Shown piece by piece: positions 5,277 through 63,802 of a stretch of 64,000 bases of DNA (the stretch's first letter is position 1; each line of letters opens with the position of its first letter). Both the position numbers and the translations under genes were made by a program. The stretch lies in contig CALUPK010000002.1 of NCBI GenBank assembly GCA_944322575.1, positions 78,779 through 142,778 of the forward strand, read 5' to 3'. This DNA comes from an uncultured Bacteroidales bacterium. Lineage in GTDB: Bacteria; Bacteroidota; Bacteroidia; Bacteroidales; UBA932. The notes beneath the pieces were generated by a model. That model searched no databases. It worked only from the letters and a program-made list of their open reading frames with translations, and was not told where the DNA came from.

Positions 5277-5373
5277 GCCGTTCAATAGTACAGGCTGCGG
5301 GATCCTCCCCACCTTCGGCGGGTCCCCTCCCTTTTCGGGAGCCAAAGTCCCGCAGCCTGTACTATTGAACGGC
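5277..5373. repeat. 97-bp element with perfect 26-bp inverted arms
   Basis: The left arm 5277-5302 (begins GCCGTTCAATAGTACAGG) is exactly reverse-complementary to the right arm 5348-5373. The 45-bp centre holds two more small hairpins: one around CCCACCTTCGGCGGG and one CTCCC-TTTTC-GGGAG. As RNA or a cruciform this would form one very stable branched hairpin. No target-site duplication is obvious at the edges. It could be a terminator between convergent genes, a MITE-like remnant, or a structured RNA; the sequence does not decide. Confidence 0.85.
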
Positions 5374-5390
5374 CTTCACAGTTACAGATT

Positions 5391-5545
5391 CCTTCCACAC
5401 CGGCACCGAATCACGCGAAACACTGCCGTTGTGGTGAACGGTCTTCATGTTCACCTGCGTCACAGGCCCTCTAAAAGCCCTTTCGCTCGCAGGACCTTTC
5501 CACACCGGCACTGAATCCCGGGAAACACTGCCGTTGTGGTAAATG
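5391..5545. repeat. Hairpin repeat, 105-bp period (family 2, locus 1)
   Basis: Two copies of a hairpin are present. CACTGCCGTTGTGG occurs at 5421 and again at 5526, exactly 105 bases apart. Each is preceded by CCACACCGGCAC and a loop resembling GAATCNCGNGAAA. The arms pair imperfectly (CCACAcCGGCAc with CTGCCGTTGTGG). The same unit and the same 105-bp period recur at 54998-55274. Confidence 0.8.
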
Positions 5546-54959: not shown

Positions 54960-54997
54960 ATGAACGTCCGCGAACATACCACTGGCTTTGCACTGAC

Positions 54998-55274
54998 ATC
55001 CGCAACGGCACCGAATCGCGGAAATCGCTGCCGTTGTGGAGCGCAGCCGAAGCATCGGAACCGCCCAGAAGGCCTGTACGCCGGGTCCAACATCGCGTCC
55101 ACTTCCACAACGGCAGCGAATCGCGGAAATCACTGCCGTTGTGGAGCACAGTTGAAGCATCGGGACCGCCCAGAAGGCCTATACGCCGGGTCCAACATCG
55201 CGTCCACTTCCGCAACGGCACCGAATCGCGGAAATCGCTGCCGTTGTGGAGCGCAGTTGAAGCATCGGGACTGT
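54998..55274. repeat. Hairpin repeat array, 105-bp period (family 2, locus 2)
   Basis: Three copies of CAACGGCA...TGCCGTTG start at 55003, 55108 and 55213, an exact 105-base period. The middle copy has a perfect 12-bp stem, CCACAACGGCAG (55105-55116) with CTGCCGTTGTGG (55133-55144), and a 16-base loop. The sequence between hairpins is also repeated (CCCAGAAGGCCT, CGCCGGGTCCAACATCGCG). The hairpin matches the pair at 5391-5545. Confidence 0.88.
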
Positions 55275-55284
55275 GAGAAGAAAG

Positions 55285-55292
55285 TAATTTTG
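55285..55292 (+). promoter_or_regulatory. Candidate -7 box for the second amylase gene
   Basis: TAATTTTG is a full match, placing a start near 55299, about 17 bases before the ATG at 55316. It could let the last two amylase genes be made independently of the rest of the operon. Confidence 0.45.
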
Positions 55293-55315
55293 TTTTCCTA
55301 AAATAACATTGTATT

Positions 55316-56677: not shown

Positions 56678-56849
56678 CACCTTCGGAAGGTGTGCAGAAA
56701 ACGGCCGGAAATGTCCCACCTTCGGAAGGTGGGAGAGGGTGCTGGAGAGCCTGATATTGTCCTACAGCTGTTCTGGAGCAGTTCCTGCATTTTCCCACCT
56801 TCAGAAGGTGCGCGGAAAACGGCCGGAAATGCCTCACCTTTGGAAGGTG
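56678..56849 (+). repeat. Paired-palindrome array (family 1, locus 1)
   Basis: Four copies of the 15-bp palindrome CACCTTCGGAAGGTG (arms of 7, one central base; the last two have one substitution) start at 56678, 56717, 56796 and 56835. Members of each pair are 39 bases apart; the pairs are 79 apart. Each pair encloses 24 bases with the core GAAAACGGCCGGAAAT. Lies between two amylase genes; the same architecture recurs at 63490-63779. Confidence 0.9.
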
Positions 56850-56890
56850 GACAACGTGTAACGATATTTAAAACCAAATAGCAATAATTT

Positions 56891-58840
56891 ATGAAGAAAA
56901 ATTTACTGACTACGATTCTGGCTGCGATGGGGCTGTCGTCCATGGCTTCCGCAGCTGTGGGCCAGGAGGGACTGCGCGTGGAGCCGCCCTGCTGGTGGAC
57001 CGGAATGGAGACCCCGCTGACGCTGATGCTGCACGCCCCCGGACTTTCGGGTGCGGGTGTGTCCGTGGACTCTGACGGGATCACGGTGAAGGCCGTGCAT
57101 TATGCCGAGAGCCCGAACTACGTGTTCGTGGATCTCGAGATTGCCGATAACTTAGCTCCGGGTGAGTACACATTTACCATCAACTACCCCGACGGTAAGA
57201 CCGAGACATTTGCCTACAGCATAGGCGAGCGTCGCGAGGGGTCACGGGATAGGGTGGGCTTCGGCTCCTCCGACGTGGTGTACCTGCTCATGCCGGACCG
57301 TTTCGCCAACGGGGACAAGAAGAACGACTCTTCGCCCCTGACCGCCGAGAGGGGCAACCGCAAGCTCCCCGGCGGACGTCACGGCGGTGACCTCCAGGGT
57401 ATCATGGACCATTTAGACTATCTGGCCGACCTCGGTATCACAGCTATCTGGCCCACTCCCATTACCCTCGACAACGAACCGACCTATTCCTACCACGGCT
57501 ACGCCTGCGCGGACTATTATCAGATAGACCCCCGTTACGGCTCCAACGAACTTTACCGCTCCTTAGTGGCAGCCGCCCATGAGAAAGGCATCAAGTTCAT
57601 CCAGGACATCGTGCCCAACCACAGCGGCACCGCCCACTGGTGGTACAACGACCTGCCTTTCTCCGACTGGATCCACCAGCATCCGACATTTACCCGCTCC
57701 AACTACGCCATGTCCGGACACTCCGATCCCCACGCCGCCCGGACCGACATCGACGCCTGCGTGACCGGCTGGTTCGATACCTCGATGCCCGACATGAACC
57801 TGAGCAATCCCTATTGCCTCCAGTACTACATCCAGCTGGCAGTGTGGTGGATAGAGTACGCTGACCTGGACGGTATCCGCGTGGACACCTATCCCTACAC
57901 CCGCAAGGAGGACATCTCGGCCTGGACTGCCGGTATCCTGAAGGAGTTCCCCAATTTTACCCTCGTGGGCGAGTGCTGGTTCCACAATACCCAGCAGATA
58001 GCCTACTGGGAGGGCTGCAGGACAGCAGACGGCGGCTTCAAGACCAATGCCGACGGCTATACCTCGCACCTGCCCATGGTGATGGACTTCGCCCTGACCG
58101 ACGCTATATCCGAGGCATTCGTACAGAATGAGAACCTGGGCTACGACGACGGCATCAAGCGCGTCTACGGCTCCGTGTCCCTCGACTTCGCCTACTACAA
58201 CCCCTACAACCTGCTGACCTTCATTACCAACCACGACATGGAGCGCCCGGCCATCCGCTTCGGCACCTACAAGGATTCCGACGAAACCGTGCTGGCGCGT
58301 ATGAAGAATGCGACCACTCTGCTGCTGACCATGCGCGGCGTGCCCCAGTGGTACTACGGTGACGAGATCCTGATGCACGGACCCGAGGAGATGGTGGGCA
58401 AGGGCGACGCCTGGTGGAGGACCGACTTCCCCGGCGGCTGGCCCGGCGACAAGGTCAATGCCTTCACGTCCGCCGGCAGGACCGAGCTGCAGAACGAGAT
58501 GTTCGACCACACCCGCACCCTGATGCAGTGGAGGAAGACTTCCGAGGCCGTGACCAAGGGCAAGCTGATGCACTTCATGCCCTTCGGCGACTTAGTGAAC
58601 GCCTACGTGTACTTCCGCTACACCCCTGACTTCAAGGACTTCGTGATGGTAGTGATCAACAACGGTACCGAGTCCGTCTCCCTCGACTGGGCCCACTACG
58701 CCGAGATATTCGACGCTGCATCCGCAGCCCTCGGCACCGACAGCTTCACCGCCACCGACATCCTCACCGGAGCGACCGTCTCCCGCAGCACCGAGCCATT
58801 AGACGTGCCCGGCATGACCTCCCTCGTCCTCCAGTTCTAA
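56891..58840 (+). CDS. susA: Neopullulanase-type GH13 enzyme (SusA type)
   Basis: This is a 649-residue exported enzyme with signal peptide (about 1-22) and no lipid Cys, so periplasmic. An N-terminal cyclomaltodextrinase-type beta domain (about 28-112, PPCWWTGMETPLTLM) precedes the GH13 barrel: Asp332 in DGIRVDTYPY, Glu361 in VGECWF and Asp449 in FITNHDM. A C-terminal beta domain follows. It should break imported maltodextrins or pullulan-like oligosaccharides. It is the last gene of the starch locus, with a hairpin after it. Confidence 0.94.
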   Translation: MKKNLLTTILAAMGLSSMASAAVGQEGLRVEPPCWWTGMETPLTLMLHAPGLSGAGVSVDSDGITVKAVHYAESPNYVFVDLEIADNLAPGEYTFTINYPDGKTETFAYSIGERREGSRDRVGFGSSDVVYLLMPDRFANGDKKNDSSPLTAERGNRKLPGGRHGGDLQGIMDHLDYLADLGITAIWPTPITLDNEPTYSYHGYACADYYQIDPRYGSNELYRSLVAAAHEKGIKFIQDIVPNHSGTAHWWYNDLPFSDWIHQHPTFTRSNYAMSGHSDPHAARTDIDACVTGWFDTSMPDMNLSNPYCLQYYIQLAVWWIEYADLDGIRVDTYPYTRKEDISAWTAGILKEFPNFTLVGECWFHNTQQIAYWEGCRTADGGFKTNADGYTSHLPMVMDFALTDAISEAFVQNENLGYDDGIKRVYGSVSLDFAYYNPYNLLTFITNHDMERPAIRFGTYKDSDETVLARMKNATTLLLTMRGVPQWYYGDEILMHGPEEMVGKGDAWWRTDFPGGWPGDKVNAFTSAGRTELQNEMFDHTRTLMQWRKTSEAVTKGKLMHFMPFGDLVNAYVYFRYTPDFKDFVMVVINNGTESVSLDWAHYAEIFDAASAALGTDSFTATDILTGATVSRSTEPLDVPGMTSLVLQF

Positions 58841-58857
58841 ACCCGGACTGCTTCATC

Positions 58858-58912
58858 GACAACGGGAAAGAGAATCGTAAACCTGCAAGGGACGGCTCTC
58901 TCTCCCGTTGTC
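58858..58912. terminator. Hairpin between susA and the convergent lipoprotein gene
   Basis: GACAACGGGA (58858-58867) pairs perfectly with TCCCGTTGTC (58903-58912), and the adjoining AAGAGA can pair with TCTCTC. There is no strong T-run, so it is a weak intrinsic terminator or an mRNA-end stabiliser for both converging transcripts. Confidence 0.6.
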
Positions 58913-58923
58913 ATTTAAGGCAT

Positions 58924-60033
58924 TTATAAGGCTTTGACGGAAAAATGTGAGCGGGTAGTGGGGTGGAATACCGGGCGGTGAAGTCGCTGTCCGGCGGCAG
59001 GAGCCTTGGATGCGGATGTACTTTGGAGAGGGAGGAGGTCGAGCGGACCGTAGTAGTTGCCGGCGACCTCATAGTCGAGGTTGGTGGTGAAAGCGAACGT
59101 GATGTTGTAGCTCAGTTCGGCGGAGTTAATGATGTGCAGGCTGCCTTCGGTAATCAGACCTAAGTACGCACTGCCCTGCGCGTCGTAGTATTCGACCACT
59201 GTGCCGTATATCTGGTCGAGATTCACTTCGCCGGGACTGAGGGTAGAGTCAGGGCCCCATTCAGGGGTGACGTGGTAGTGTCCTCCGGGCAGACGGCCGT
59301 CCTCAGTGAGTCTCATGTAGCAGTCGATATTGAGGATGCTGCCGGGCGGTATGGTGTAGCCGTCAGCGTCTGTGTTCATGTCTGTGAAGGAAAGAATGAC
59401 GTTGGATATGCCGTCTCCGAGTCCCTCCATATCGTCGTTGACCGAGCCCATGGCGGCCTTGGCCTGGATGCTGATGGTCTGCTCAAGCGGCAGATAATCT
59501 GTCACTCCTGTGGAGTAGTCCGTGAATGCTGTGGGACCGGAATAATGTACATGGTGGGTCATACCGGCCACATCGGTCAGTTCTGCCTCGAAAGTGTAGT
59601 TGCTGCCGTTACGTGAGACGGTCAGGATGCCGGATGTGAAGGTGAGCTGAAGAGTCCCTCCGTATCGGCTGGCCTCCTCGAAGAGGGAGTAGTTGGGCGT
59701 AAATGTGCCGACGGCCGTCTCGCCCCAGGGACCGAGGCTGTAGGTGCCTTCCTGCAGTGTGATGTGCTTAAGGTCGGCGGCTGCAGTGGAGAACACATCG
59801 AAGTAGTAGTATCTTCCGCCCGGCAGGAGTGAGCCGTCATCTCCAAAGCCTATGTCGGAGAGACAGATGTAGTAGTTGCATTCTCCGGAGTTACCTATCG
59901 CTCCGTTGTAGTCCCCGTAGAATACAAGGGCCTCCGTATTGTAGTCAGCGCTGTTGTCCTTCCTGCAGGACACGGCAGCAGCTGCTACGATAGCCGTCAG
60001 TAAGAGCAGATATGGGAACCGGAGGCATTTCAT
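58924..60033 (-). CDS. Lipoprotein of unknown function, probably two-domain beta protein
   Basis: This is a 369-residue lipoprotein with lipid Cys23 (A-V-S-C). The mature part is rich in Tyr, Gly and Asp and reads as two related beta domains, each with an LPGG[R/H]Y segment (LLPGGRYYYFDV and RLPGGHYHVTPEWG) and a later EGTYSL / EGSLHI strand. This hints at an internal duplication. Its last 35 residues are Pro/Ser/His-rich and probably disordered. Its ATG overlaps the NamZ stop as ATGA, so the two are expressed together. No function recognised; a glycan- or wall-binding role is only a guess from the neighbour. Confidence 0.8.
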   Translation of the reverse strand: MKCLRFPYLLLLTAIVAAAAVSCRKDNSADYNTEALVFYGDYNGAIGNSGECNYYICLSDIGFGDDGSLLPGGRYYYFDVFSTAAADLKHITLQEGTYSLGPWGETAVGTFTPNYSLFEEASRYGGTLQLTFTSGILTVSRNGSNYTFEAELTDVAGMTHHVHYSGPTAFTDYSTGVTDYLPLEQTISIQAKAAMGSVNDDMEGLGDGISNVILSFTDMNTDADGYTIPPGSILNIDCYMRLTEDGRLPGGHYHVTPEWGPDSTLSPGEVNLDQIYGTVVEYYDAQGSAYLGLITEGSLHIINSAELSYNITFAFTTNLDYEVAGNYYGPLDLLPLQSTSASKAPAAGQRLHRPVFHPTTRSHFSVKAL

Positions 60034-61328
60034 AGTGCGTAAAGGTAATATTTTTCCGAGACTTTACGGAATTTTTCTGCAAAATCGTTCCAGATATTGA
60101 AGATGTCCTCATATCTGTACCGCTCTCCGAAGGCCTTCCGCACATCCTCGGAGCCGGTCACCTTGTCGAACATTTCCAGCCGTGAGGCATCTGCAGCCCC
60201 GAACGGGTCGAAGTCCGGCTGCATGTCCGCAATGACCTGCATCGCATAGAACTGAATCTCCGAGAGCCGTGCCGCCCCGAAGTCCGTGATGTAGATCTGC
60301 ACCCCTCCGATCTCCTCTCCCTTGAGCGAGCCGTAGAATGGTGTGGCGTACACGGGCCGGAACAGCACCCCCGGCAGATAGAGGGCGTTCATCCGCGAGG
60401 CCAGCAGGTCCGCGTCCATCCCCGGACATGCGATCATGCCGAAGGGCAGGGTGTAGCTCACCCCGATGGACAGTACCCCGAGCTCTCCGAGAATACCGGT
60501 CGCCGGGTAGAGGTATGCCGCCTCCACCGTGGGAATGTGGGGGGAGGAGGGCACCCAGAGCAGTCCCGTCGCGTCGAAGTTCATGCCGCGCCTCCATCCT
60601 TCCATCTTCACGACCGTGAGCCGGCATTTTACCGTAGAGTCCCGGCCGTCGGAGCCATCCACCCTGAGCATCCCCTCCTCGTTGAGCAGGGTCGCCAGCT
60701 CCCCGCAGGTGAGGCCGTAGACATAGGGGATATTGTATTGTCCTACGAATGAGATGAGGGAGTCCTCTACTCCCGGGCCCTCGACCTTCAGGCCTCCGAG
60801 GGGGTTCGGACGGTCGAGGATGATCATTTCCACCCCTTCCATTGCCGCCACCTTCATCACATTGCCCATGGTGCTGATGTAGGTGTAGGAGCGGCAGCCG
60901 ATGTCCTGTATGTCGTAGACGATGGCGTCGAGGCCCTCGAACTGCTCCGCGGAGGGAAGGCGGGTCTTGCCGTAGAGGGAGAAAATGGGAACGCCGGTGC
61001 GGGGGTCGACGGCCTGTCCCTCGACGTGCTCGCCGGCGTGGGCATTGCCACGGACCCCGTGTTCAGGGCCGAAGAGGGCGACCAGCTCCACTCCCGGGGC
61101 GCTGTTCAGGACGTCGATGGTGGAGTTGAGGTAGCGGTCCACGCCCGTGGGATTGGTCACCAGCCCGATGCGCTTGCCCTGCAGCTGCTCGAAGCCGTTG
61201 GCCTCGAGGACGTCTATGCCGGTGAGGACGGTCTGGGCGGTGCCGGTGGCGGGGATGAGGGTAAGGGCGGTCAGGATGAGGACGGCCGCGGCTGTGGTGG
61301 AAAGATGGTATGTTCCGGATAATTTCAT
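60030..61328 (-). CDS. namZ: Exo-beta-N-acetylmuramidase (DUF1343 family)
   Basis: This is a 432-residue exported protein of the DUF1343 family, whose studied members (NamZ) cleave terminal MurNAc from peptidoglycan fragments. The start is the ATG at 61328 (MKLSGTYHLS); an in-frame TTG 9 bases before is less likely. A signal peptide covers about 1-32. Seen: the signature FGPEHGVRG with the Glu-His pair, VYDIQDIGCRSYTY, DRPNPLGG and VPSSPHIPT. It lies 29 bases after the antiporter gene; an AmpG-like permease gene is upstream on the same strand, which fits MurNAc-fragment salvage. Confidence 0.93.
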   Translation of the reverse strand: MKLSGTYHLSTTAAAVLILTALTLIPATGTAQTVLTGIDVLEANGFEQLQGKRIGLVTNPTGVDRYLNSTIDVLNSAPGVELVALFGPEHGVRGNAHAGEHVEGQAVDPRTGVPIFSLYGKTRLPSAEQFEGLDAIVYDIQDIGCRSYTYISTMGNVMKVAAMEGVEMIILDRPNPLGGLKVEGPGVEDSLISFVGQYNIPYVYGLTCGELATLLNEEGMLRVDGSDGRDSTVKCRLTVVKMEGWRRGMNFDATGLLWVPSSPHIPTVEAAYLYPATGILGELGVLSIGVSYTLPFGMIACPGMDADLLASRMNALYLPGVLFRPVYATPFYGSLKGEEIGGVQIYITDFGAARLSEIQFYAMQVIADMQPDFDPFGAADASRLEMFDKVTGSEDVRKAFGERYRYEDIFNIWNDFAEKFRKVSEKYYLYAL

Positions 61329-61357
61329 ATCGTACAATGTGTTTTGGACTCGGGCTG

Positions 61358-63391
61358 TCAGCTGAGGGCCTGGCCGGAGTCGTCGTATTTCTCGGGGTAG
61401 AGGAGGATGAGGCTGCAGGAGGTGAACTCGCGGCCGAGGAGGCGGGGCAGCTTCTCAAAGGAACTGTCGTGGGAGATGGAGCCGGGACGGGAGCTGACTA
61501 CGGCCAGGAGGCTGTCGTCGTCGAGTTCGGAGGCGAGGGAGGTCAGGTCGCTGTAGTCCTCCATGGGAACGTAGAGGGCTTCGAGGCGGTGGCTGTTCTC
61601 CTCGAGGAGTTTCTGCAGTATGACAATGGTCTCCTGGGGGGCGTGGAAATGCAGGGGGCGCTCTAAGGAGGTGCTCAGGCGGCATAGGTGCTCCACCCAG
61701 CGGCTGAATCCAGCTTCGTACTCGGCTTTGGGCGGGACTGCCACCACTATCTGGCTCAGGGTGTTGATGGGGACCATGAGGCGGGAGAGGAGGACTTCGC
61801 AGGAGAGGCTCTTGAGGAGGTTGACAGCTAAGTTGCCGAGAATCGGGCTGTCGGCGTCCCTTCTCAGGCCGATGAGGAGGCTGGTAATCTCCTGTTCCTT
61901 GACGGTATGGATGATGCCCGAGGCGATGTTGAGGTCGTAGCGGCTGAGTTTCTTCAGGTCCACGTGGGCGGAGGCGGCAATCTTGGCGGCGTTGTCGAGG
62001 TTGCGGGAGGCGGTGCTCACGGCCTTGGAGTTGTCGGTGTCGTAGAGGATGCTCAGGGCGTAGAGGTTGTCGTTGAGCATGGGGTCGCGCACGGCCATCG
62101 AAAGGCAGACTAAGTCCTTGACGGTGTCGGGGTTGGCCAGCGGAATGAGAATCTTCTCTGGCCGGCTGTCGGGGTCGCGGTCGATGACGGGCTCCTCCAT
62201 TGCTATCTTGCGGGCGGTGCGGTCGGTGGTCAGGGAACTGACGATGCAGGTGAATAGAATCAGGAGAATGGTGCCGTTGAGGATGTCCTCGTTCAGGAGG
62301 CGGCTCCCGTCGGGGAGGATGATCTCGTAGCCGATGAGGGCTGCGGCGAGGGTGGCGGCTGCCTGGGAGGTGGTGAGGCCGAACATCAGGCGGCGCTCGG
62401 TGGCGGCCATGCGGAAGACCTTCTGGGTCAGGAGGCTGGCAATCCATTTGCCGGTCAGGGCGGTGGCGGTCATGACCAGTGCTACCTTGATCGCGCCCCA
62501 GTGGCCGAATATCACGTTGAGGTTGATGAGCATGCCCACTCCGATGAGGAAGAATGGGATGAAGAGGGCGTTGCCCACGAACTCGAGATGGCTCTTGAGG
62601 GGGGAAATGGACGGAATCAGGCGGTTGAGCAGGATGCCGGTGAGGAAGGCTCCGAGGATGCCCTCTAATCCGGCCACTTCCATCAGCCCGGCTGCTGCGA
62701 ATAGCAGTACCATCACGAATATGAACTGCATGACGGTGTCGTCGTACTTGCGGAAGAACCATCGCGCTATTCTCGGGAAGGAGTAGATGATGACGGCACC
62801 TATCATTATCACCTTGAATGCCATCACTATCCAGAACGACTCACCTGTGCCGCCCTCGAATATGCCGCTCATGACGGCCAGCACCAGCAGGGTCATGGTG
62901 TCGGTGACTGCTGTGGCTCCTACGGCTATGCTCACGCTCCTCTCGCGGGAGACTCCGAGGCGGAGGACTATCGGGTAGGAAATCAGGGTGTAGGAGGCGT
63001 ACATGCTGGCCAGCAGGATGGAGGTGGCGAGGCTGTACTTGAGCAGGGAAGTGTTGACTATGAGCCCGAGTATGATCGGTATGGAGAATGTGAGCAGGCC
63101 CAGGACGGCGGCCTTCCTGCGGTTGTGCTTGAAGTCCTCCATGTTGATGTCCAGGCCGGCCAGGAGCATGATGTAGTACAGGCCGACGTTGCCGAAAAGC
63201 TCAAAGCTGCTGTCGCGGGCCAGCAGGTTGAGTCCGTGCTCGCCGATGAGCACGCCGGCCAGAATCATCCCGATGATGTTCGGTATCCGCAGCCGGTTGA
63301 ACAGCAGCGGGGCGAACAGGATGATCAGCAGTACGATCAGGAATATCCACGTGGGATCGGTTATGGGCAGGCTCAGTTCACTCCAGTTCAT
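61358..63391 (-). CDS. CPA2-family Na+(K+)/H+ antiporter with C-terminal USP-like region
   Basis: This is a 677-residue protein. The first about 395 residues form a KefB/NhaP-like exchanger with about twelve helices (LRIPNIIGMILAGVLIGEHG at the start, LEGILGAFLTGILLNRL in the middle, LTTSQAAATLAAALIGYEI late). The remaining about 280 residues are soluble and resemble one or two universal-stress-protein-type domains (EKILIPLANPDTVKDLV, LLIGLRRDADSPILG), possibly nucleotide-sensing. No TrkA-N domain. Probably exports Na+ or K+ and adjusts internal pH. Confidence 0.92.
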   Translation of the reverse strand: MNWSELSLPITDPTWIFLIVLLIILFAPLLFNRLRIPNIIGMILAGVLIGEHGLNLLARDSSFELFGNVGLYYIMLLAGLDINMEDFKHNRRKAAVLGLLTFSIPIILGLIVNTSLLKYSLATSILLASMYASYTLISYPIVLRLGVSRERSVSIAVGATAVTDTMTLLVLAVMSGIFEGGTGESFWIVMAFKVIMIGAVIIYSFPRIARWFFRKYDDTVMQFIFVMVLLFAAAGLMEVAGLEGILGAFLTGILLNRLIPSISPLKSHLEFVGNALFIPFFLIGVGMLINLNVIFGHWGAIKVALVMTATALTGKWIASLLTQKVFRMAATERRLMFGLTTSQAAATLAAALIGYEIILPDGSRLLNEDILNGTILLILFTCIVSSLTTDRTARKIAMEEPVIDRDPDSRPEKILIPLANPDTVKDLVCLSMAVRDPMLNDNLYALSILYDTDNSKAVSTASRNLDNAAKIAASAHVDLKKLSRYDLNIASGIIHTVKEQEITSLLIGLRRDADSPILGNLAVNLLKSLSCEVLLSRLMVPINTLSQIVVAVPPKAEYEAGFSRWVEHLCRLSTSLERPLHFHAPQETIVILQKLLEENSHRLEALYVPMEDYSDLTSLASELDDDSLLAVVSSRPGSISHDSSFEKLPRLLGREFTSCSLILLYPEKYDDSGQALS

Positions 63392-63802
63392 TCTGCGAAT
63401 TTAAGAAAAAATCTTTTCCGGCGGTGCTGTGGCGGTGCGCTTTTCAGTTTCGGCTCTGGAGGGGCTGCCGTTTCCCCGCAGCTTCCCTACTCCTTCGGAA
63501 GGTGAGTAGATTTCCCGCGTTTTCGTCTCACCTTCGGAAGGTGTGCATTTGCCTGAATTGCCCTACAGCGTCTATGGCCCTGCTTTCCCTTGCCTGACCC
63601 TCATTCCACCTTCGGAAGGTGAATAGATTCCCCGCGTTTTCGTATCACCTTCGGAAGGTGTGCATTTGCCTGAATTGCCCTACAGCGTCTGTGACCCTGC
63701 TTTCCCTTGCCTGACCCTCATTCCACCTTCGGAAGGTGAGTAGATTCCCCGCATTTTCATCCCACCTTCCGAAGGTGGGCGGAAGAAGTGAGCTATTTCA
63801 CA
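63392..63802. other. Gene-free gap holding a paired-palindrome array
   Basis: This 411-bp gap lies between the AmpG-like gene and the antiporter gene, both on the minus strand. Bases 63490-63779 are a 117-bp-period tandem repeat carrying six palindromes. Nearest the antiporter start is a possible -7 box, CGAATTTA at 63396-63403 (TAAATTCG on the minus strand, 7 of 8). Nothing else recognised. Confidence 0.75.
63490..63779 (-). repeat. Paired-palindrome array (family 1, locus 2)
   Basis: Six copies of the 15-bp palindrome start at 63490, 63529, 63607, 63646, 63724 and 63763, with spacing 39, 78, 39, 78, 39. They are embedded in a 117-bp tandem repeat (about 2.5 units; GTGTGCATTTGCC at 63541 and 63658). 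Each pair encloses 24 bases with core GAAAACG..GGAAAT read on the minus strand, the strand on which the flanking genes are transcribed. The last palindrome has C as its central base and is extended to CCCACCTTCCGAAGGTGGG. Confidence 0.9.

Follow-up and report, generated by a model that had tools for sequence, protein, structure and literature searches.

Paired palindromes in a 39-base register as probable REPIN-like elements of a divergent RAYT system in a Bacteroidales genus

The paired 15-base palindromes found at two loci of a 64,000-nucleotide stretch of DNA from an uncultured Bacteroidales bacterium (the whole stretch is hereafter called the window) are probably REPIN-like elements that are non-autonomous and belong to a RAYT system. 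Such systems are known above all from Proteobacteria, and the way in which a RAYT chooses its repeats is understood only in part; REP doublets, named REPINs, were reportedly described together with RAYTs by Bertels and Rainey in 2011. In the present case, several types of RAYT occur within a single Bacteroidales genus, together with different hairpin families that are built on a similar plan and have no GTAG guide.

Both loci are intergenic. The 15-mers start at positions 56678, 56717, 56796 and 56835 at locus 1 and at 63490, 63529, 63607, 63646, 63724 and 63763 at locus 2, each with no or one substitution relative to CACCTTCGGAAGGTG. The start-to-start distance is 39 bases within all five pairs, and the step from one pair to the next is 79 at locus 1 and twice 78 at locus 2; the ten copies, five pairs, 39-base register and steps of 78 or 79 claimed in the sequence-only reading were all recovered in place. 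When up to three mismatches were allowed, the window contained 25 strand-matches (a palindromic site being scored on both strands) compared to 1.66 expected, and none of 100 shuffles got to 25. At locus 1, pair 1 (56678–56731, plus strand) consists of palindromes at 56678–56692 and 56717–56731 around a 24-base core and folds as single-stranded DNA into one hairpin (z −4.57), and pair 2 (56796–56849, plus strand; palindromes 56796–56810 and 56835–56849) follows after a 64-base linker (56732–56795). At locus 2, the core of pair 1 (63490–63543) reads on the minus strand, as do those of pair 2 (63607–63660), whose fold was computed, and pair 3 (63724–63777). TRF reported the postulated 117-base tandem unit, made up of a pair and a 63-base linker, with 2.4 copies and 93% matches at 63492–63777. 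At both loci the core reads in the sense direction of the flanking genes (plus at locus 1, minus at locus 2), also as claimed.

The element measures 54 bases and comprises two 15-base arms and a 24-base loop whose core is of the GAAAACGCGGGAAA type, and the consensus of 29 full-length pairs of the CACC type is CACCTTCGGAAGGTG-aGacGAAAAcGCGGGaAAnCngCn-CACCTTCGGAAGGTG. A sister form carries CTCC...GGAG arms, a compensated change that retains the palindrome. The minimum-energy fold of a pair as single-stranded DNA is one long hairpin with a 15-bp stem; z-scores ranged from −2.9 to −4.6 for three real units and one consensus (DNA parameters), and 2 of 200 shuffles folded as well as the CTCC unit. 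We oriented 45 pairs of the genome by core motif score, some of the scores being near-ties, and found stem positions 1–7 and 9–15 paired in 41–45 of them. Position 8 is mismatched in 37 units, a G-T in 3 and paired in 5. Here G opposite G is the most frequent stem centre (21 of 31 CACC and 6 of 14 CTCC pairs in the own genome), and it occupies the centre in 24 of 27 pairs of the RAYT-bearing loci L064–L067 and L084. This mismatch arises because both arms are copies of one odd-length palindrome, and it may be under selection. The REPIN feature, a pair of inverted arms folding onto each other, is present, with 14 of 15 stem positions pairing; because each arm is a palindrome, arm order by itself is no proof of inversion, and polarity comes from the core. 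An unpaired GT[AG]G foot, outside the stem, within 0–1 base and on either strand, was found in none of the 45 own-genome pairs. The features of CGTC-tagged REPs, given in excerpted text of PMC3733652 as a CGTC at the foot, a stem of 8–9 bp and a loop of 4–5 bases, are likewise absent: among the 31 CACC pairs, CGTC stands one base from the arm, on the inner side, at 9 left and 2 right feet, and stem and loop sizes are unlike.

Copies are dispersed throughout the genome, and the two loci are thus no private duplication. In its 2.3 Mb we counted 60 exact 15-mer sites (reversed control 0), or 77 with one mismatch allowed (control 1); the own-genome CACC pairs number 22, and arrays with at least one pair occupy about 20 separate places. 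Most of the other arrays are also intergenic, while several overlap ORFs that are possibly spurious. The window and 17 other stretches of the genome contain 110 sites of the CACC or CTCC type (one mismatch). These gave 84 neighbour distances of ≤150 bases, and 71 of the distances equal 38, 39, 78, 79, 117 or 118, exactly 39 in 42 cases and 38 in 3, the 13 off-register distances being spread from 33 to 89. The earlier suggestion of a functional register had been staked on copies elsewhere being neither random in spacing and orientation nor confined to the two loci; spacing proved to be strict and other loci exist, but orientation is mixed. A codon phase, considered in view of 39 and 117 being multiples of three, was ruled out because 118-base units (39+79) exist too. 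Among 299 genomes sampled from the family, CACC pairs are present in 11, namely in 11 of 19 within the own genus and in 0 of 280 elsewhere.

Both loci vary between genomes by whole units. Of the 19 genus genomes, 14 have a match to locus 1 and 5 have none; the comparison covered 12 of the 14, leaving out the weak matches in G173 and G005. Two pairs are present in the own genome (G000), G109 and G120, one arm in G109 having a substitution; G159 and G191 carry one pair, and in G075 and G141, where the linker is absent, three palindromes stand at distances of 39 and 39. In the remaining 5 of 12 (G185, G087, G131, G062 and G098) the locus is empty and two amylase-type genes lie <30 bases apart; none of these five genomes has the clade-I RAYT described below. 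At locus 2, where eight genomes with both neighbouring genes in place were compared, relatives having the array carry one, two or three pairs: G000, G120 and G046 contain three, G141 two and G159 one, G075 has a lone CTCC palindrome, and G131 (two pairs) and G087 (one arm) are without CACC but carry GGAAAGTG arms. G109 has three pairs with a contig end just behind; contig ends (G185, G151) or absence of the right-hand gene (G191, G062, G098) placed five further genomes outside this count. Change by whole units would account for the 39/78/117 register, and such gain and loss can mimic a designed ruler.

The window contains no REP-associated transposase gene, in agreement with the sequence-only reading, which had suggested looking for a Y1 tyrosine transposase in the rest of the genome. 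RAYT-like genes are indeed found there: the PF01797 profile gave six matches and a protein search seven, all outside the window. Two of the six barely exceed the cut-off of 23 (scores 23.9 and 23.8, and 22 or less in a second scoring), and all six proteins scored far under the cut-off of NF047646 (best 39 bits compared to 80). The C10 RAYT is 312 aa long, within a range of 301–341 aa for the RAYTs considered here, and the C41 and C84 RAYTs are 49% and 44% identical to it. All 17 aligned relatives have H51, H53 and Y108 without exception; the tyrosine motif is mostly Y[IV]xRNP, and one clade has YISRNA in place of Y---NP. An AlphaFold2 model of the L066 RAYT (pLDDT 85.2, pTM 0.86) matched best, at E 3.8e-6, the REP-hairpin-bound RAYT of PDB entry 4er8, which we take to be the E. 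coli protein, followed by the IS608 and ISDra2 transposases. RAYT/TnpA-REP features, i.e. HUH motif, catalytic tyrosine and Y1 fold, are present, with curated-profile scores at or below the cut-offs. The enzyme is classed as a divergent and unusually long HUH-Y1 RAYT with an extension of about 200 residues and a putative activity in cleaving its cognate single-stranded REP. An order-wide search with a RAYT profile at E 1e-20 or better yielded 3 of 393 genomes, of which one is the own genome and two belong to a different genus within the family. More distant RAYT relatives come from rumen, deer and horse MAGs, and repeats were seen around all nine inspected; L079, a 42% match, lies outside the analysed loci.

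The REPtron feature, a RAYT flanked by copies of a dispersed repeat, is present with CTCC, CACC and a further repeat family, B. The C10 RAYT of the own genome is flanked on either side by CTCC pairs, which upstream lie beyond a cutC gene. Among 21 RAYT loci examined in relatives, CACC pairs flank a clade-I RAYT on both sides in L065, L066 and L067 and upstream only in L064; these four RAYTs are 61–62% identical to C10, and the four loci, counted as such, probably correspond to genomes G109, G046, G120 and G141, which show the same alignment values. With the own RAYT flanked by CTCC, the match for the CACC type of the window is known from relatives only. The C41 and C84 RAYTs have other inverted-arm families on both sides, that of C84 being family B. 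In total, three of the seven own-genome RAYT-like matches are accompanied by described repeats and one (C15:26355) by longer inverted repeats, and none of the three repeat motifs was found around the other three.

Across the genus, copy number follows the gene. Seven genomes with a clade-I or C10-type RAYT hold 22, 39, 16, 33, 35, 24 and 4 CACC pairs (average 24.7), although two of them count by a 38-residue fragment at a contig end (G159) or a copy with a stop (G075), and the 12 genomes without such a RAYT hold 0–4 (mean 1.0; Mann-Whitney p 0.0002, uncorrected for kinship). A comparison of the five genomes with a full-length RAYT to the 11 that lack any such match gave p 0.0005. G191 is grouped among those without clade-I RAYT (p 0.00018, or 0.00013 when grouped with the carriers). 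It was rejected as a carrier as the flanks of its candidate gene are without CACC or CTCC and the C-terminal part is poorly matched.

RAYT clades differ in the arm sequence of the adjoining repeats. A table of 43 RAYT rows, duplicate genomes included, against 16 arm motifs shows an almost block-diagonal pattern, in which some isolated matches fall off the diagonal and 3 rows fit no motif; since the motifs were chosen from the flanks of representatives, the informative part of the table is its exclusiveness. When 17 arm labels are mapped onto a tree of 35 RAYT rows (33 different), they need 16 changes, which is the minimum (shuffled mean 27.0, 0 of 200 as low), near-copies among the rows favouring such clustering. 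The label "none" on this tree (L117, L119, L120) means that no listed motif fits, and inverted repeats are visible by eye in L120. The motif GAGTGTACC...GGTACACTC, which was picked from the surroundings of one RAYT clade, is present in 4 of 19 genomes. These are precisely the genomes with that clade, and in three of the four one copy is distant from the RAYT. A genome has just 1–2 exact pairs of the GAGTGTAC family, of which one is located at the RAYT.

Arm type and the C-terminal part of the protein change jointly. The C10 RAYT is syntenic with the CACC-type RAYTs, and compared to three of these its residues 1–95 are 95–98% identical and the remainder 49%. At the DNA level the outer 5' flank is 92–97% identical where covered and the 5' repeat block mostly unalignable; cutC and the RAYT up to about codon 117 are 87–89% identical, the remaining RAYT and the 3' repeats are unalignable, and in the downstream flank identity is 93% over 2.8 kb in L065 and 93–95% in only short pieces in L066 and L067, with no match in L064. 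In our reading, this combination may be the product of recombination near codon 117. In G075, with CTCC about 0.9 kb upstream of the RAYT, the N-terminal piece is almost equally similar to C10 and L066 (87% and 85%), and the part from residue 96 is 81% identical to C10 and 47% to L066. In all six alleles seen, two CTCC and four CACC, arm type thus tracks the C-terminal part; CACC also stands upstream of the RAYT in L084 and L121, which are probably a single genome and whose contig ends after 38 codons. Tentatively, and with odds that we would place on the lower side, the RAYT may be modular, with an N-terminal part (residues ~1–95, HUH) that is kept and a remainder (tyrosine helix and the ~200-residue extension) that would set the arm. 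In the own genome, a different C-terminal part would then stand behind the resident N-terminal part, with CTCC repeats at its flanks, and the 22 CACC pairs would be cut off from their mobiliser, a REP turnover caught half-way. The syntenic alleles, with near-identical N-terminal parts, divergent C-terminal parts and two arm types, constitute a natural experiment on specificity.

As REPIN-like elements, the pairs would fold in the single strand, where the RAYT may bind them, cut the folded element and move or copy it, and tandem arrays would grow and shrink by recombination between units, which would preserve the 39/78/117 register. The fixed spacing would then reflect how the element and its tandem copies are built and be no ruler for a host process. 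The sequence-only reading had compared the loci to a REP/BIME-type mosaic, and this comparison holds in that the copies are dispersed, form hairpins, lie between genes at the window loci and stand beside a RAYT in relatives. Recombination between tandem repeats without any link to a RAYT, carried along in the genus, would account for pair numbers that change by whole units at both loci, and family B is found in many genomes where its RAYT went unfound. Such an origin is nevertheless hardly probable given arrays at about 20 separate places, RAYT genes with repeats on both sides, the match between arm type and RAYT clade and a C-terminal half that changes together with the arm type.

From a seemingly fixed orientation to transcription, an RNA-level role in mRNA stabilisation or attenuation had been proposed; as oriented RNA elements, hairpins in the mRNA would stabilise, attenuate or terminate transcripts. 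The sense orientation of the core, the position of both window arrays between co-directional genes and the strong hairpins (calculated with DNA parameters) fit such a role, but genome-wide the orientation is mixed. The arrays of 20 places were assigned by hand on longest-ORF gene calls, a heuristic in which short ORFs running through repeats were set aside: between co-directional genes 5 are sense, 3 antisense and 1 mixed; convergent genes surround 6 arrays and divergent genes 1, 4 are undecided, and L040 and L041 contain both orientations within a single array. An RNA-level role as a rule is rejected on account of this mixture. Of the 20 arrays, 7 lie in convergent or divergent gaps. The amylase-type gene pair furthermore does without the element in five relatives, a scan of locus 1 alone for promoters or terminators found none, and neither array matched Rfam up to E 1, the only matches in the window being two sub-threshold MIR535 matches at 58848–58922, outside the arrays. 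We consider an oriented RNA element very unlikely. The near-perfect palindromes and their strict spacing could also suggest an array of operators or nucleoid-protein sites, read by a dimeric DNA-binding protein, which we regard as highly improbable: spacings of 39 and 78–79 bases would correspond to no whole helical turns, the conserved core and the position beside RAYT genes are left unexplained, other RAYT clades have very different arms in a similar layout, and the loci are dispensable between species.

Compared to known systems, the REPIN-like elements and their RAYTs share the REP/RAYT principle and differ in GTAG foot, protein length and tyrosine motif. As in the REPIN/RAYT systems of the excerpted PMC2817692, the two REPs of a pair fold with each other, a Y1 RAYT is flanked by repeats that the genome also carries, different RAYTs have different repeat types of their own, and doublets and regular clusters occur; here, however, the GT[AG]G foot is missing (0/45), the arms themselves are 15-base palindromes, and the RAYT scores at or below curated cut-offs. 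RAYTs recognise REPs via a GTAG foot plus a bulge or loop, according to excerpts of PMC8266576, and in the available text of Nunvar 2010 (PMC2817692) the RAYTs meeting its criteria occur in gammaproteobacteria only. For Bacteroidetes, excerpts of Quentin 2018 (PMC6006769) give atypical structures for TnpA-REP subclass 2.6 and none for 2.1 and 2.3. Subclass 2.6 resembles our system in its host phylum and in atypical flanks without GT[AG]G that have copies in the host genome, but its proteins, compared by their description in that partial text, have 179 aa and YIH[QN]NP, as opposed to 301–341 aa and mostly Y[IV]xRNP. Subclass 2.1, by the same excerpts, is among the longest proteins and has a C-terminal extension, but is given there without REP-like sequences, whereas repeats stand beside most inspected RAYTs of the present clade. 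TIRtrons or TIRYTs (Di Nocera 2013, excerpts of PMC3733652) are also RAYT-like genes, their inverted-repeat flanks have no relation to GTAG REPs, and for some of them the genome holds further copies of the family; hosts and sequences are different, and in the present system families A and B have, in addition, a similar loop core. A literature search of titles and abstracts, with partial coverage and the repeat sequence itself being unsearchable, returned no description of these repeats.

Family B is represented in the window by three units of period 105 at 54996–55310 (plus strand), with inverted arms CCRCAACGGCA / TGCCGTTGTGG, the same arms that flank the C84 RAYT, and by two degenerate units, also of period 105, at 5393–5543 (plus strand). 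Its arms surround a GAATCGCGGAAAT-type core, and by eye the loop cores of families A and B are similar. The own genome contains 73 exact pairs and G109 106, no family-B RAYT having been found in the latter; overall, the family occurs in 15 of 19 genus genomes and its RAYT was seen in 4. The genomes are draft assemblies, and repeat and RAYT can be uncoupled here or the RAYT gene may lie in assembly gaps; family-B pair counts thus did not track the presence of a family-B RAYT.

Other repeats were noticed in passing. Perfect inverted repeats of 26–28 bp occur at 5277–5373 of the window and at L054 3674–3774, L106 2434–2540 and L111 2935–3041; their stem differs by place (alike in L106 and L111) around a similar G/C-rich loop of 45–55 bases with CTCCC, GGGAGGGG and GGTGGG motifs, which looks like another element family with locus-specific stems. 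In uncultured Bacteroidia, ~20-base palindromes around TGTACATACC/GGTATGTACA are located downstream of a RAYT (L074 4961–5423, units 62 and 84 bases apart; L075 4986–5302). RAYTs of another clade (L055 3978–5634, L118, L120) are flanked by longer MITE-like elements with ACGTTGCTTTTTAGTTG- or TGTCACTATACATTTTAGT-type inverted repeats, and a 14-base tandem repeat adjoins the RAYT region at L045 5409–5538.
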